From Gloeomargarita sp. SKYG116 (GTDB lineage: Bacteria > Cyanobacteriota > Cyanobacteriia > Gloeomargaritales > Gloeomargaritaceae): a DNA stretch of 64,000 nt. A program made the translations under genes and the position numbers. Below the pieces are notes generated by a model. The model was not told the origin of the DNA. It did not search any database and worked only from the letters and a program-made list of their open reading frames with translations. The stretch is from the NCBI GenBank assembly GCA_025056115.1, contig JANWVM010000004.1, positions 1 through 64,000 of the forward strand, given 5' to 3'. Every line of letters starts with the position of its first letter. Position 1 is the first letter of the stretch. Of this stretch, positions 1,227 through 56,200 are shown piece after piece.

Positions 1227-1613
1227 AAAGAACTACCATACCATAAGCTAAATACTTATTTTAACCCAACGACTCATGGGCCTTGACTAGGCAAGTACAC
1301 GCCTGATACTGATTGTGAGTGCTAGGGTTGAGCTGCTAAATCTACCAAGTTCTTAGCTGATAAGGTAACACCTGCGCCTTATTCTGGTCAGAGTGCCTGT
1401 TATAGCTGAGTCATCTGTGCTTGTCCTGTCTTAGGGTCGCAGGGCGCAGCGCTGTCCTTGGTTTTTCGCTCATCTTTCTGACGAACTGCAGCAGCTTAGC
1501 TGTATTGCGTTGTCTAGACCCATGTCCGTCGAGATTGCTTGTCACCAGCGCGTCTCTGGTTTCACTTTAGACCCAGTACAAGCGCCTGTATTGCCATTTC
1601 CATATTTCGCTAA
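1227..1613. other. 387-bp gene-free spacer between two tRNA genes
   Basis: No coding sequence with plausible codon use or a ribosome-binding site is visible on either strand. The only recognisable structure is the 104-bp inverted-repeat element at 1401-1504. The remaining parts (1227-1400 and 1505-1613) show nothing I can name. The spacer lies upstream of tRNA-Leu and downstream of tRNA-Gly, both on the minus strand, so it could hold the tRNA-Leu promoter and the tRNA-Gly transcript end. Confidence 0.7.
1401..1504 (-). repeat. MITE-like inverted-repeat element, copy A (104 bp)
   Basis: This stretch matches the reverse complement of 37901-38004 without gaps, 82 of 104 positions by hand count. 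Its core, around 1436-1450 (GTCGCAGGGCGCAGC), is identical in both copies. The ends form a 10-bp imperfect terminal inverted repeat (TATAGCTGAG against TACAGCTAAG, 8 of 10). Both ends carry TA, as expected of elements that target TA dinucleotides. It contains no open reading frame of note. The strand is given relative to copy B. Confidence 0.75.
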
Positions 1614-37892: not shown

Positions 37893-37908
37893 CCGTATTG
37901 TATGTCTA
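37880..37908 (-). promoter_or_regulatory. Predicted CobW-gene promoter with -35 inside a repeat element
   Basis: On the minus strand TAGACA (37903-37908) and CATTAT (37880-37885) are spaced by exactly 17 nt. The -35 box lies inside the terminal inverted repeat of MITE-like copy B, while the -10 lies inside the candidate Zur/Fur palindrome. The leader would be short, about 10 nt to the first ATG, which makes Met5 (37852) attractive as the real start. Confidence 0.45.
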
Positions 37909-38004
37909 AGCCGCTTCAGTTTGTCAGAGAGATGAAAGACAAACCAAGGGCGGGGCTGCGCCCTGCGACTCCAAGACATGACACGAACAGACGGCTTAGC
38001 CATA
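37901..38004 (+). repeat. MITE-like inverted-repeat element, copy B (104 bp)
   Basis: This copy matches copy A (1401-1504, opposite orientation) at 82 of 104 positions without gaps. The ends TATGTCTAAG and, reversed, TATGGCTAAG match at 9 of 10. The copy lies between the CobW promoter and the end of the CheA-like gene, so it also occupies the region where the chemotaxis transcript should end. A GC-rich centre (GGGCGGGGCTGCGCCC) can form a hairpin. No coding capacity. Confidence 0.78.
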
Positions 38005-50459: not shown

Positions 50460-52319
50460 TTGTTGACCAGTACGACGACCTCCGCGGCTGCGACGACTGC
50501 GCCGGCTAGTGCTGAAACGACTCCCCGCCGTTGCACAGGCGCTTACGCTCTGATTGATAGCCTGTACCGGCACGGTGTGCGGCATATTTTTGGGTATCCT
50601 GGCGGCGCTATTTTACCGGTCTATGACGAACTCTACCGCTGGGAAGCTGAAGGCAAGATGCAGCATATCCTGGTGCGGCACGAGCAGGCGGCGGGACACG
50701 GGGCAGACGGCTATGCGCGGGCGACGGGAAAGGTGGGGGTCTGTTTTGGGACGTCGGGGCCGGGGGCGACAAATCTGGTAACGGCAATTGCCACGGCGCA
50801 CATGGACTCCATCCCCATGGTAGTGATCACCGGGCAGGTGCGGCGGTCGGCCATTGGTAGTGATGCGTTCCAAGAGACGGACATTTTTGGGATTACGTTG
50901 CCGATTGTTAAGCATTCCTATGTGGTGCGCGACCCCCGCGATATGGCCCGGATTGTGGCGGAAGCGTTTTACATTGCCAGTACGGGGCGCCCAGGACCCG
51001 TGTTGATTGACATTCCCAAGGATGTGGGGGAAGAGCAGTTTGACTATGTGCCGGTCATGCCGGGGCAGGTGAAGTTGCCGGGGTACCGGCCCACGGTGAA
51101 AGGGAATCCGCGCCAGATTGCCCAGGCGAGCCGACTATTGCTAGAAGCGAAACGGCCCTTGCTGTACGTGGGGGGTGGGGCGATTGCGGCAGGCGCGCAC
51201 CGGGAAATTCAGCAATTGGCGGAGTGGTTCCAGATTCCCGTGACCACGACTTTGATGGGTAAGGGCGCGTTTGACGAGCAGCACCCGTTGTCGGTGGGAA
51301 TGCTAGGGATGCACGGGACGGCCTACGCCAACTTTGCCGTGAGCCAGTGCGATTTGTTGATTGCGTTGGGGGCACGGTTCGACGACCGGGTGACAGGGAA
51401 ACTGGCGGAATTTGCTCCCCATGCCAAGGTGATTCATGTGGACATTGACCCGGCGGAAGTCGGGAAGAATCGCCCGCCCGATGTGCCGATTGTGGGGGAT
51501 GTGCGGCAGGTGCTGGTGGATTGGTTGCAGTATTTGCAGACTGGGCCGCAGCCTGATCCTGAGCGCACGAAGCCCTGGTTAGCCCAGATTGCCGCCTGGC
51601 GCCAGGATTACCCGCTGGTGGTGCCCCGGGAAGGGGAATGGCTCTCGCCCCAGGAAGTAATTGTGACGTTGGGACAACTGGCGCCCGATGCCTACTACAC
51701 GACGGATGTGGGCCAGCATCAGATGTGGGCGGCTCAGTTTTTGAACTGCGGTCCCCGGCGGTGGATTTCCAGTTCCGGCTTAGGGACGATGGGGTTTGGG
51801 TTGCCGGCGGCGATGGGCGTCCAAGTGGCCCTACCGGATGCCCAAGTCATTTGCATTAGCGGCGATGCCAGTGTGCAAATGAACATCCAAGAGCTAGGGA
51901 CACTGGTGCAGTACCAATTGCCCGTGAAGACAGTGATTATCAACAACTTCTGGCAGGGGATGGTGCGCCAGTGGCAGGAAGCGTTTTACCAGGAGCGCTA
52001 CGCCCACTCGGCCATGGAAGCGGGAATGCCAGATTTTGTGAAGCTGGCGGAAGCGTATGGGGTCAAGGGGATGCTGGTGCGGCGGCGAGATGAACTGGAA
52101 TCGGCGCTCAAAGAAATGCTGGCGCATCCGGGGCCGGTTTTGATGGATGTGCATGTGAATCCCACGGAGAATTGCTACCCCATGGTGAAGCCGGGGCATA
52201 GTAATGACCAGATGTTTGGGTTGCCGGAGCGCCCGCGCCAGCGCACGGAATGTCCCGCTTGTAGTGCCCCCATTCAAAGTGAGTTTCGCTTTTGTCCGGC
52301 CTGCGGGCATCGGTTGTAA
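50460..52319 (+). CDS. ilvB: Acetolactate synthase, large subunit, with C-terminal zinc ribbon
   Basis: This enzyme condenses pyruvate to acetolactate in branched-chain amino-acid synthesis. The 619-aa protein has the ThDP-binding N-domain with the catalytic Glu ([20 protein letters not shown]), the FAD/central domain and the ThDP-Mg domain ([17 protein letters not shown], then [13 protein letters not shown]). No ATG lies before the conserved [15 protein letters not shown], so the start must be TTG (50460 or 50463) with no clear Shine-Dalgarno. The last 25 residues carry C598-x2-C601 and C612-x2-C615, a zinc ribbon not part of the core enzyme. The small subunit ilvN is not in the window. Confidence 0.93.
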
Positions 52320-52342
52320 GAGTTTCACGGGAAACCACTTTG

Positions 52343-52364
52343 TGCAGACTCATCAGACTCTGCA
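52343..52364 (+). terminator. Hairpin after ilvB (possible terminator)
   Basis: TGCAGA and TCTGCA enclose a further pairing (CTC-ATCA-GAC, one mismatch) to give a compact hairpin 24 nt after the ilvB stop. There is no T-run after it. A smaller hairpin (GTTTC-ACGG-GAAAC) lies just before it. It may end the ilvB transcript or act as a processing site. Confidence 0.35.
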
Positions 52365-52419
52365 GTACCAGGAAGCAGTTAGCTAAACTGTGGGAATAAA
52401 ACAAAACGAGTACTGCGTC

Positions 52420-52833
52420 ATGACTCTGCGACGGGCTTGCTTGCAGATTCTGCTAACGGCGATGGGATGGAGTGCTGTGCTGAACCCAGCAATGGCGCAA
52501 CCGCCCTGTCCCCTGTGGCAAGCAGGTATCACCGAATTCTCTCGCGCCTGTCTCCTCGCACAGTTGGCCGGTCCCCCTGCTGTAGATGAAGACCCTATCA
52601 CCACAGTGGTCACCCGCACGCCGCGCCGAGTGGATGATTCGCCCGCATCGGTGACAGTCATTGACCGCAAGCGCATTGAACGCAGCAATTCGCAAACGCT
52701 CCGGGATGTGTTCCGTTATGAGCCAGGGGTGTCGGTGCGACAGTCATTTTTCTACGACTCATGGGACATCAATGTGCGGGGTATCGGGGGCAGGCGCGTA
52801 CTGCGGCTGATTGATGGCATTCGCTTACCGTAA
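52420..52833 (+). pseudogene. Truncated TonB-dependent receptor (N-terminal remnant)
   Basis: This 137-aa frame has a signal peptide (MTLRRACLQILLTAMGWSAVLNPAMAQ), the segment CPLWQAGITEFSRACLLAQ, a TonB-box-like TTVVTRTPRR and the first half of a plug domain (SPASVTVIDRKRIERSNSQTLRDVF). It stops right after DGIRLP. The intact receptor at 53915 matches along the whole length and continues for over 600 residues from the same point. No barrel sequence follows; instead 53 nt on lies the inverted-repeat copy C. I judge it a decayed paralogue, although a short secreted product is possible. Confidence 0.85.
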
Positions 52834-52886
52834 GCTCATCTGGTAATAGTTCTCCCAGGCTTCTGCGGGTTTGACGATAGTTGCTC

Positions 52887-52962
52887 TACAGCTAAGTAAC
52901 CTTCAACAGGGGGACTTTGCCCTGCGACCCGCTGGACAACAAGCGTGGATAACTTGGCTGTA
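52887..52962 (+). repeat. MITE-like inverted-repeat element, copy C (76 bp, internally deleted)
   Basis: The ends TACAGCTAAG and, reversed, TACAGCCAAG match at 9 of 10. The core GCCCTGCGACCC and the right arm (ACAAGC..GAT.ACT..GCT.TAA) align with copies A and B with a single 1-nt gap, while about 28 bp of the left interior is missing. It sits 53 nt after the truncated receptor and 5 nt before the predicted -35 of the uptake operon. Confidence 0.68.
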
Positions 52963-52967
52963 ATTTA

Positions 52968-52996
52968 TTGCTTTTGAATTTTATTTTCAATAAACT
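52968..52996 (+). promoter_or_regulatory. Predicted promoter and FurA-like box of the uptake operon
   Basis: TTGCTT (52968-52973) and TAAACT (52991-52996) are spaced by 17 nt. Over the spacer and -10, 52977-52995 matches the published Anabaena FurA consensus (AAATAAATTCTCAATAAAT, from memory) at 14 of 19 positions. Two nested inverted repeats are visible: TTTATTG/CAATAAA (52964-52994) and TTGAA-7-TTCAA (52974-52990). Repression by Fur under iron-replete conditions is the natural reading, but it is inference. Confidence 0.5.
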
Positions 52997-53029
52997 GGGG
53001 TTAGGTTACGACATAAGGAGTCAATAGTG

Positions 53030-53872
53030 ATGCGGCTTTGGGTGCGGCGTGGGGCGCTGGCGCTGGGGATACTGTTGGCAAGTGCGACAGTAGCTTGGGC
53101 GCAACCCTATCGGCGGGTAGTGGCGCTGACGTCGTTAACGGCGGATATTTTGCACCGCTTAGATGGGCAACGGCTGGTGGGGGTGCCGGGAAGTTCCCTG
53201 CTGGAAAAGCAGCCGGAATTGGCGCGTTTACCCAAGGTGAGTGAAGGACGGGTGCAGCCAAATTTAGAGCGGATTGTAGCCCTGAAACCCGATGTGGTCA
53301 TTGGTGCAAGTCTTTTTCATGAACCGACGGCTAATCGCTTGCAATCTTTAGGCATTGCCACGCACTTAGTGGATGTGCGGCGCTGGGAAGACCTGGAAGC
53401 GGTGACGCGCCAGTTGGCTCAGTTGACGGCAACCAACCCAGACCCCTTGCTCCGGCTGTTTCGTTCCCTGAATGCCCCCAAACCAGCGCGGGCGCGCGAG
53501 GTGTTGGTTCTAGTCAGCGAACGTCCTATCTTGACACCAAATCGCGATAGCTGGGCGGGTTCCATGCTGGAGCGGTTTCACCTGCGGAACCTGGCGGCGG
53601 ATTTACAGGGACGTTCCCCGATCGCAGGTTATGTCACCCTGTCGCCGGAGCAGGTGTTGCGCTTGGACCCGGAGGTGCTGATTGTGGTGGGGGGACCCGG
53701 TGAGAATCCCTTGCCCCGCTGGCAATCCCAGTCGTTTTGGCGGCGGTTAAAGGCGGTACGACAAGGGGAGGTGTATGCCTTGGATTACTACGGACTGGTG
53801 AATCCGGGAAGTGTCGAAGCTATTCGGCAAGCAGCGCTGCGCCTACAGGCGATTGCCCAGGGACGGCGTTAA
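53030..53872 (+). CDS. Periplasmic metal-chelate-binding protein (BtuF/FecB type)
   Basis: This 280-aa class III solute-binding protein has a signal peptide (about 1-24, cleaved after AWA), then RRVVALTSLTADILHRL, LARLPKVSEGRVQPNLERIVALKPDVVIG and the long backbone-helix layout of the BtuF/FhuD/FecB group. It would deliver a cobalamin- or siderophore-like ligand to the permease at 56211. ATG 53030 has AAGGAG 9 nt upstream; a GTG 3 nt earlier is less likely. It is first in the operon binding protein-receptor-permease-ATPase. Confidence 0.87.
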   Translation: MRLWVRRGALALGILLASATVAWAQPYRRVVALTSLTADILHRLDGQRLVGVPGSSLLEKQPELARLPKVSEGRVQPNLERIVALKPDVVIGASLFHEPTANRLQSLGIATHLVDVRRWEDLEAVTRQLAQLTATNPDPLLRLFRSLNAPKPARAREVLVLVSERPILTPNRDSWAGSMLERFHLRNLAADLQGRSPIAGYVTLSPEQVLRLDPEVLIVVGGPGENPLPRWQSQSFWRRLKAVRQGEVYALDYYGLVNPGSVEAIRQAALRLQAIAQGRR

Positions 53873-53914
53873 GTTTCCATTTTCCCATTCGTTCAACAGG
53901 TGGAGGAGTGTGCA

Positions 53915-56200
53915 ATGCCTATCAAACGTTATGGATGGACGGGTGCATTTCTCTTGTGGGGCGTGATGCTCAGCCCGGCATTGGCCCAAAAATCCTGTCC
54001 AGTCTGGGAAGAAGGAGTGGCGGAGTTTTCCCGCCATTGTTTGCTGGCGCAAGCGGAAACGCCACCGGCGCGAGACAGCCGCACGGCGCAAGCGGAGGAC
54101 ATCGAAATTACCGTCACGGGAACGCGCACGCCCCGGGAGGTGCAGGAATCGCCCAGTTCGGTGACGGTGATTGACCGCCAGGAAATCGAGCAAAACAATG
54201 TGCAAACGCCGCAGGATTTGTTGCGCTACCAGCCGAATGTGTCGGCGCCCTTTTCATCCCGCTATGGCACGTTGAACTTCAATATCCGGGGGTTAGAAGG
54301 CAACCGGGTGCTGCTGCAAGTCGATGGCATTCGCCTGCCAGGGGAGTTTGAACTGGGGCCGATTCGCATCGGGCGCGATTTTGTGGATTTGAGTACGCTC
54401 AAGCAGGTGGAAATTCTCAAAGGGCCAGGGTCAGCGCTGTACGGGTCGGATGCGCTAGGGGGTGTGGTGTCGTTCATCACCATTGACCCAGAGGACTTGC
54501 TGGCGATTACAGGACGAGATACCTACTTTCAGGTGTTCCCCAACTACGCCAGCGCTAATTCCGCGAGTAACCAGCGGGGAGCTGTGGCGTTTCGCAGTGG
54601 GCCGGTCTCAGGGGTGGCGCTCTACACCCGGCGAGATTTCCGTGAGCCGAATCGCTTGGGGGACTCCCGCTTCCATGACCGGCAATCGGGTGAGAGCAAT
54701 AACTTCTTTGGCAAGGTAGTGTTCCAAGTGGGGGACGGCCGCAAGCTCAAACTCACAGGGGATTTCCTAGACCGGCCACTGACCACCCGGTTCGCGCAGG
54801 CTAACATCCTTGAAGAAACTCGGGCGCGGGCTGTCCAGCGCTTTCGCTCGCAGGTGCGCACTCAACGCCAGCGGGTGAGCCTGGAATACGATTTCCAAAA
54901 TCCCGAAACCAGTTGGCTGCAGTCGGCTAGGGTGCTGCTGTACTACCAAAATACGGAAGTGCCCGAAAACACGTTTGAAGACCGGGGGCGGTTTATTCGC
55001 CAGTCCACGGGGAATTTCCTGGAGCGCATCGCCGGGGCCAGTGTGCAGTTTTCCAGCCCGTTTCGCACGGGGGCAGCGGAACACTTGTTGACCTATGGGG
55101 TAGATTTTTCTATCCAGCGCAACGAACGCCCGCGCGACAAGATTCAAATCGACCGGGTGACGGGAGCGGTGACCCGTGAGCGCATCCCCGAAAATTTCCC
55201 ACTCAAAGATTTTCCTGATTCGGACACCCTGCGGTTGGGGATTTTTGTGCAGGATGAGATTCAGATTGGCGAGAGCCTGAGTTTGATTCCGGGGCTGCGC
55301 TTTGACTTTTACCGGTTGACGGCTAATCCGGACCGGGATTTCCTGCGTAACTTGCCGGCAGGGATTCGCACGTCCAACTTTGAAGCCACCAGTTTTTCAC
55401 CGCGCTTGGGGCTGGTCTGGCGGTTTGCGCCGGGGTTTAATCTTTTTGCCCAATACGCCCGTGGGTTCCGCGCCCCAACCTACGATGAAATCAACAGCGG
55501 CTTTGCCAACACGGTAACGTTTCCGGCCTACTATGTGGAACCCAATCCCGACCTGAAAGCAGAAACCAGTGACGGTTTTGAATTAGGGTTTCGGGGGCGC
55601 TCGGAGCGGGGACGGTTTACCTTGGCGGCCTTTTACAACTCCTACCGCAATTTCATCGAGAAATTTGCCTTTGTGGGGACGACGACTTTACCGGGGATTC
55701 GTGGTCCGGTGTTGCGTTTTCAATCGCGCAATGCGGCACGGGCGCGCATCTATGGCGTGGAATTCAGCGGCGAGTACCGGTTTCTAGATAACCCCTTTGG
55801 CCTGAGTGTGTTTGGGTCACTGGGCTATGCGGTGGGGGACGACTTGACGAACGACCGGCCCCTCGTCACGGTGGACCCGTTTAAAGCAGTCGCGGGATTG
55901 CGGTTCCGGGGCCAGGAGGACCGCTGGGGTGTGGAACTGGTGGGGACCTTTGTGGGTCGCCCGCGCGTGCCTGATCCAGATGTCTTTCTAGTCCCTCGGG
56001 GCTACACCCGTTTGGATTTGTTGGGCTACGTACGGATTACGCCACTGGTGTCCTTGAATCTGGGGATTTTTAATCTCACCAACACCAAATACTTTGAGTA
56101 CGCCGATTTGCGCAATTTCCCCCGCGCCGATGCGTTTCGGGTGGACCGCCTGGCCCAGCCAGGAACCAATATCTCGGTGGGGATTAACTGGCAGTTCTAG
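53915..56200 (+). CDS. TonB-dependent outer-membrane receptor
   Basis: This 761-aa receptor has a signal peptide (cleavage after ALA), a short N-terminal segment with two Cys (CPVWEEGVAEFSRHC), and a TonB box (EITVTGTRTP at about 70-80). The plug domain follows (SPSSVTVIDRQEIEQNNVQTPQDLLRYQPNV through KGPGSALYGSDALGGVVSF), then a 22-strand β-barrel. The barrel includes the family hallmark FAQYARGFRAPTYDEIN and ends in the terminal aromatic residue (INWQF). ATG 53915 has GGAGGAG upstream. The ligand is unknown: heme, a siderophore or cobalamin would all fit. It lies 42 nt after the binding-protein gene. Confidence 0.93.
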   Translation: MPIKRYGWTGAFLLWGVMLSPALAQKSCPVWEEGVAEFSRHCLLAQAETPPARDSRTAQAEDIEITVTGTRTPREVQESPSSVTVIDRQEIEQNNVQTPQDLLRYQPNVSAPFSSRYGTLNFNIRGLEGNRVLLQVDGIRLPGEFELGPIRIGRDFVDLSTLKQVEILKGPGSALYGSDALGGVVSFITIDPEDLLAITGRDTYFQVFPNYASANSASNQRGAVAFRSGPVSGVALYTRRDFREPNRLGDSRFHDRQSGESNNFFGKVVFQVGDGRKLKLTGDFLDRPLTTRFAQANILEETRARAVQRFRSQVRTQRQRVSLEYDFQNPETSWLQSARVLLYYQNTEVPENTFEDRGRFIRQSTGNFLERIAGASVQFSSPFRTGAAEHLLTYGVDFSIQRNERPRDKIQIDRVTGAVTRERIPENFPLKDFPDSDTLRLGIFVQDEIQIGESLSLIPGLRFDFYRLTANPDRDFLRNLPAGIRTSNFEATSFSPRLGLVWRFAPGFNLFAQYARGFRAPTYDEINSGFANTVTFPAYYVEPNPDLKAETSDGFELGFRGRSERGRFTLAAFYNSYRNFIEKFAFVGTTTLPGIRGPVLRFQSRNAARARIYGVEFSGEYRFLDNPFGLSVFGSLGYAVGDDLTNDRPLVTVDPFKAVAGLRFRGQEDRWGVELVGTFVGRPRVPDPDVFLVPRGYTRLDLLGYVRITPLVSLNLGIFNLTNTKYFEYADLRNFPRADAFRVDRLAQPGTNISVGINWQF

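Follow-up and report, generated by a model that had tools for sequence, protein, structure and literature searches.

The window, by which we mean the whole stretch of 64,000 nucleotides that was analysed, holds three short elements lying between genes: copy A separates tRNA-Leu from tRNA-Gly, copy B has a CobW-type GTPase on one side and a CheA-type kinase on the other, and copy C is bordered by a truncated TonB-plug fragment and, on its other side, a periplasmic binding protein. The features of the three copies are the following:

1401..1504, + strand: MITE copy A, 104 bp with both terminal TA counted; the element proper covers 1403-1502
1401..1426, + strand: left terminal region of A, transposase-end-like (TATAGCTGAG...TTGTCC; by end comparison)
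1479..1504, - strand: right terminal region of A (TACAGCTAAG...CGTCA, reading inwards; by end comparison)
1434..1463, + strand: 30-bp shared core in A, diverged, with 2 mismatches to the pattern
37901..38004, - strand: MITE copy B, 104 bp, again counting the two TA; the site is empty in the relative G001, with a single TA
37942..37971, - strand: 30-bp shared core in B, with 1 mismatch
52887..52962, - strand: MITE copy C, 76 bp, with an internal deletion; most of the right-hand arm is gone
52901..52930, - strand: what remains of the shared core in C, with GGGTCGCAGGGC retained and the other bases diverged (by direct reading)

The sequence-only reading of this DNA had given these coordinates exactly, and its placement of all three copies between genes holds, as does its count of 82 identical positions out of 104 when A and B are aligned without gaps in opposite orientations. 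It was also right in that A and B have TA at both ends and possess terminal inverted repeats, which are imperfect and 10-11 bp long. As for C, which had been said to keep both its ends and its core, the ends are indeed kept, and the core only in part. When the window was searched with a profile built from 17 copies located elsewhere, with A and B excluded, the three copies were recovered with E-values of 4.9e-28 (A), 1.2e-26 (B) and 9.3e-6 (C), the next match in the window standing at 6.4 and the best one in the reversed window at 3.2. The truncated TonB-receptor plug fragment (PF07715) adjoining C, at 52390-52833, looks like a decayed duplicate, because it is approximately 67% identical to the start of the receptor at 54122-54334.

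The family had been described as having three copies, which is the count of the window and not of the genome. In the host genome (G000; 2.37 Mb in 258 contigs), 43 matches were obtained by BLAST with copy A, and a family model at E<=1e-3 gave at least 123 matches there and at least 115 in the closest relative, G001, both being lower bounds from the scoring of the best 150 candidates. The further genomic copies whose search had been proposed therefore number more than 100 in the host alone. Weaker matches to the model were found in G002 (27), G004 (30), G005 (48) and G006 (3), and none in G003 or in G007, which belongs to another genus; across 59 genomes, the BLAST matches of copy A were confined to the same genus. 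In addition, a paired-end pattern, TATAGCYRAGYN{60,90}GCTATA, matched 32 times, with 0 matches in the reversed control. The members of the family, here called alpha, thus have terminal inverted repeats and are dispersed, non-coding and present in high copy number.

The alpha copies have in common ends of approximately 26 bp, composed, reading inwards, of TATAGCTAAGC, nine variable positions (N9) and TTGTCA. The sequence-only reading had advised looking for an IS630-type transposase with the same end sequence, and one was found in the same genome: an IS630-family element of 945 bp (L029:1556-2500), whose ends are of the TATAGCTAAGC type (TATAGCTAAGCTGACAAAGGTTGACA and TATAGCTAAGCCGTTTAAGATTGTCA), and whose open reading frames match PF01710 HTH_Tnp_IS630 (2.6e-14), PF13358 DDE_3 (4.8e-38) and the NCBIfam model transpos_IS630. 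A second IS630-family copy with alpha-like ends is present on contig C55 of the host. The alpha consensus ends agree with the IS end at 22 of 26 positions, a score reached by none of the 3877 TA-starting 26-mers of the window; the left end of C is a weak match (14/26), and 117 of the same 3877 reach that value. Likeness to the IS is limited to the outer 29 bp or so, and, since these terminal bases alone match, the body of the alpha element is not IS-derived; an interior produced by deletion of the IS, usual though not universal for MITEs, is thus not what alpha has. There is also a second MITE family, of approximately 103 bp (TATAGCTAAGCACAGAATG...), with the same end as alpha and a different interior.

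In the host-genome IS copy with matching ends, ORFA and ORFB lie in different frames with an A8 run between them (L029 near 2100), and its activity would therefore need frameshifting, slippage or another copy. The transposase frame is split too in a copy of the TATAGCTAAAA type (L133), and such split frames could be due to slippage or to decay. In G002, a complete relative of the transposase, of 300 amino acids (L117:1075-1977), lies between similar, matching ends. Judging from these sequences, transposases of the L029 type probably move alpha, and may still be able to do so in this strain. L029 is itself a nested insertion hot spot: two different IS630-type elements lie near each other (572-1421 and 1556-2500, with TATAGCTAAAA and TATAGCTAAGC ends, respectively), and the second of them adjoins both a truncated alpha MITE and, at its opposite end, a MITE of the second family.

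Empty sites in relatives, whose search had likewise been proposed, were sought by fusing the flanks of each element with one TA and using the product as a query. Four clean pairs of filled and empty sites were obtained, each with one TA when empty and two when filled. The first is copy B itself, for which G001 has the exact empty site, ATTG-TA-GTGTAGG; the second is an alpha copy that lies within the gene for an IS630 transposase (L076:12836-12938, empty in L116 and L142, TTGGC-TA-AA); and the other two belong to the second, sister MITE family (L110:7946-8048 and L080:7859-7961). Insertion therefore duplicates the TA. Moreover, G002-G006 also lack B in the orthologous spacer. For A, the relatives show no cleanly readable empty site, because its flanks are rearranged and separated there. 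Nor does G001 offer one for C, since C is present at the same place, inside a block that is 98.5% identical, and the spacer corresponding to C in G003 fails to align. For most of the other spacers, compared with G001 by global alignment at approximately 80% gene identity, the exact junctions are too diverged to be read.

The block surrounding C deserves description in its own right. It spans 50800-56100 of the window, that is, at least 5.3 kb at 98.5% identity to G001, compared with a median near 80% in other aligned stretches and about 80% for typical genes, and contains the end of an acetolactate synthase gene, the TonB-plug fragment, the periplasmic binding protein and a hemoglobin/transferrin-type TonB receptor. 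It is likely, from this identity, that it represents a recent exchange between species, and C was probably carried along with it, given the length and identity of the surrounding block. At another place, one TA has received two insertions, an alpha MITE in the host genome (L014:1501) and an IS630-type element in G001 (L087:3104), the adjoining flank being 97.5% identical; these are independent insertions at one site.

We regard it as almost certain that A, B and C belong to a type-I, non-coding MITE family moved in trans, at TA, by a transposase of the IS630/Tc1-mariner type, as the sequence-only reading had suggested. Observed are the copy number (above 100), the shared ends, the TA duplication at empty sites, the absence of B from its site in relatives and the IS630 element with the same ends, and all of them support this explanation. 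As to the mechanism, the transposase would recognise in trans the ends of approximately 26 bp at both sides of the roughly 100-bp elements, excise the element and paste it into a TA, which would thereby be duplicated. The interior was not inherited from the IS, and holds instead a 30-bp palindromic core common to other MITE families of the genus.

This core, the central 30 bp of the element, reads GGGTCGCAGGGCRCNGCCCCGNCCTTGGTT. Allowing up to 3 mismatches, its pattern was found 30 times in the host genome, 14 in G001, 28 in G002, 51 in G004 and 2 in G005; the 52 cyanobacterial genomes searched outside the genus had no occurrence, and the reversed control was 0 everywhere. G005, a member of the genus with 3.05 Mb, combines these 2 core matches with its 48 model matches at E<=1e-3, and carries a related but diverged family. 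Among 84,980 species genomes, a collection which may omit the genome of the window and those near it, a close exact form of the pattern was found only in Gloeomargaritales cyanobacterium VI4D9 (OV696605.1), a member of the genus, and it is by kinship with this relative that the window is assigned to Gloeomargarita. In G002 and G004, the core lies in the middle of MITE families with other ends. The beta family has the layout TATAGCAATCCTAAATGAGAATGGAACAG-core-CTGGGGAATTTCTGTT...AGGATTGCTATA and TATAGCAATC ends, the gamma family has the layout GGGCACCTCTATAAATTCAAAGTTAG-core-CTGGGTAATATGGG...AAATAGAGGTTCCC and the ends GGGCACCTCTAT and GGGCACCTCT, and a third core-bearing type, delta, is characterised by GGCAATCACACCTGAATTG.

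The arms of these families were grouped by single-linkage clustering at a score threshold over 170 distinct contexts. Five contexts join a beta left arm to a gamma right arm (L1xR2) and eight a gamma left arm to a beta right arm (L2xR1), as in L171, L214, L217 and L223, these counts being approximate because of the single-linkage threshold and because typing by regular expressions leaves 76 of the 170 contexts untyped on both sides. In such hybrids within G004 and G002, each arm is near the consensus of its own family, the left and right families being mixed, which, from the sequences, reads as recombination at the core. Two further observations concern core-bearing elements. In G002 and G004, core units of approximately 82-139 bp form tandem arrays of 3-4 copies (L152, L156, L172, L188, L194, L213, L215 and L221). 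Furthermore, in some gamma or delta elements the core palindrome is partly or wholly deleted (L118:920, L160:762 and L201:731), a loss which fits palindrome deletion, as expected.

On this basis, it is proposed that the core is an independent module, swapped throughout Gloeomargarita among MITE families that use different transposases, the difference in transposases being read solely from the differing end sequences. Exchange of arms at the core, by recombination or template switching, would build new families round a constant centre, and the core may have a common function, such as the binding of a host factor; for this proposal as a whole, we hold belief and doubt to be about evenly balanced. 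A different account of the core alone, which leaves the mobility of alpha untouched, is that it is what remains of one old family whose arms have diverged past recognition, with no exchange of parts. An ancestral family of this kind is plausible because G004 also has alpha-type ends (L168, near 2902) and G005 has ends related to them (L151). Nevertheless, when the two species groups are compared position by position, identity falls sharply at both borders, from 77% in the core to 27% in the left arm and 26% in the right arm, which is the level of chance, and the arms in G004 and G002 are close to their family consensus and yet mixed, so that we hold the old-family account to be unlikely, without being negligible.

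The other two alternatives bear on the mobility of alpha itself. The elements could be a family of structured non-coding RNAs or regulatory sites at fixed places, an alternative which the sequence-only reading had kept beside the MITE, since the terminal repeats allow them to fold, and the core contains a short hairpin with inner stem pairs conserved in 92-95% of distinct cores. Nearly all the changes in this hairpin are one-sided, four cores having G-C in place of C-G at one pair, and its structure is only suggested because two-sided changes are few. The alternative found no support: the Rfam matches are tRNAs only, with none for the element; the covariation term of the consensus is near zero (-0.34 kcal/mol), and both partners have changed in four pairs, of which two belong to the terminal repeats; and copies sit in transposase genes and beside each other's ends, with the TA duplicated, at sites that vary between species and, for B, are empty in relatives. 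We consider it very improbable.

BIME/REP and REPIN repeats are mosaic, palindromic, short and intergenic. That alpha belongs with such self-mobile palindromic repeats, moved by a RAYT (Y1) transposase instead of IS630, would suit short, palindromic, intergenic and highly repeated elements with a small hairpin as core, but is scarcely credible, since those repeats have other ends and another target behaviour, whereas alpha matches IS630 ends across 26 bp and duplicates TA on insertion, a behaviour not known from REPINs.

The IS630-driven MITE, as the best explanation of alpha, can be set beside known systems. Like those type I bacterial MITEs that IS630/Tc1-mariner elements mobilise in trans, alpha is approximately 100 bp long and non-coding, with terminal inverted repeats matching an IS, TA duplication and more than 100 copies; it differs from them in that its interior is no internally deleted IS and its core is common to MITE families with other ends. 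Within cyanobacteria, ISY100 (ISTcSa) of Synechocystis PCC 6803, of the IS630/Tc1-mariner family, has been seen to duplicate TA in vitro (PMC2170065), and is likened to alpha by family and target alone, being a complete IS that encodes its transposase. The type II MITEs of Anabaena sp. 90, with 147 complete or partial copies of 77-541 bp, are also cyanobacterial and mostly intergenic (PMC3542288), but they are without an end-matching IS, which alpha has. As regards the core, highly conserved domains are common to unrelated SINEs and DNA transposons, such as the V domain in MER6, and, like the core, they are short conserved modules amid otherwise unrelated parts (PMC6887750). Those domains belong to animal retroposons and DNA transposons, whereas the core is bacterial, 30 bp long and palindromic, so that this is an analogy and implies no relationship.

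The literature search found no paper on MITEs, transposases or mobile repeats of Gloeomargarita. Among living cyanobacterial lineages, this genus is usually named as the closest to plastids, a kinship which makes the alpha family useful, even as one more IS630-driven case. By mechanism, we conclude with high confidence, alpha is an ordinary IS630 MITE, and what is unusual is the constant core amid different ends. This shared core is the weightier result, since MITE families are normally defined by their ends, and it raises the question of why a 30-bp palindrome alone should be retained. A constant centre with exchangeable ends, in one genus so far, offers a testable route to new MITE families. 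Moreover, the modular core, if true, would be a bacterial counterpart to the conserved central domains of SINEs.
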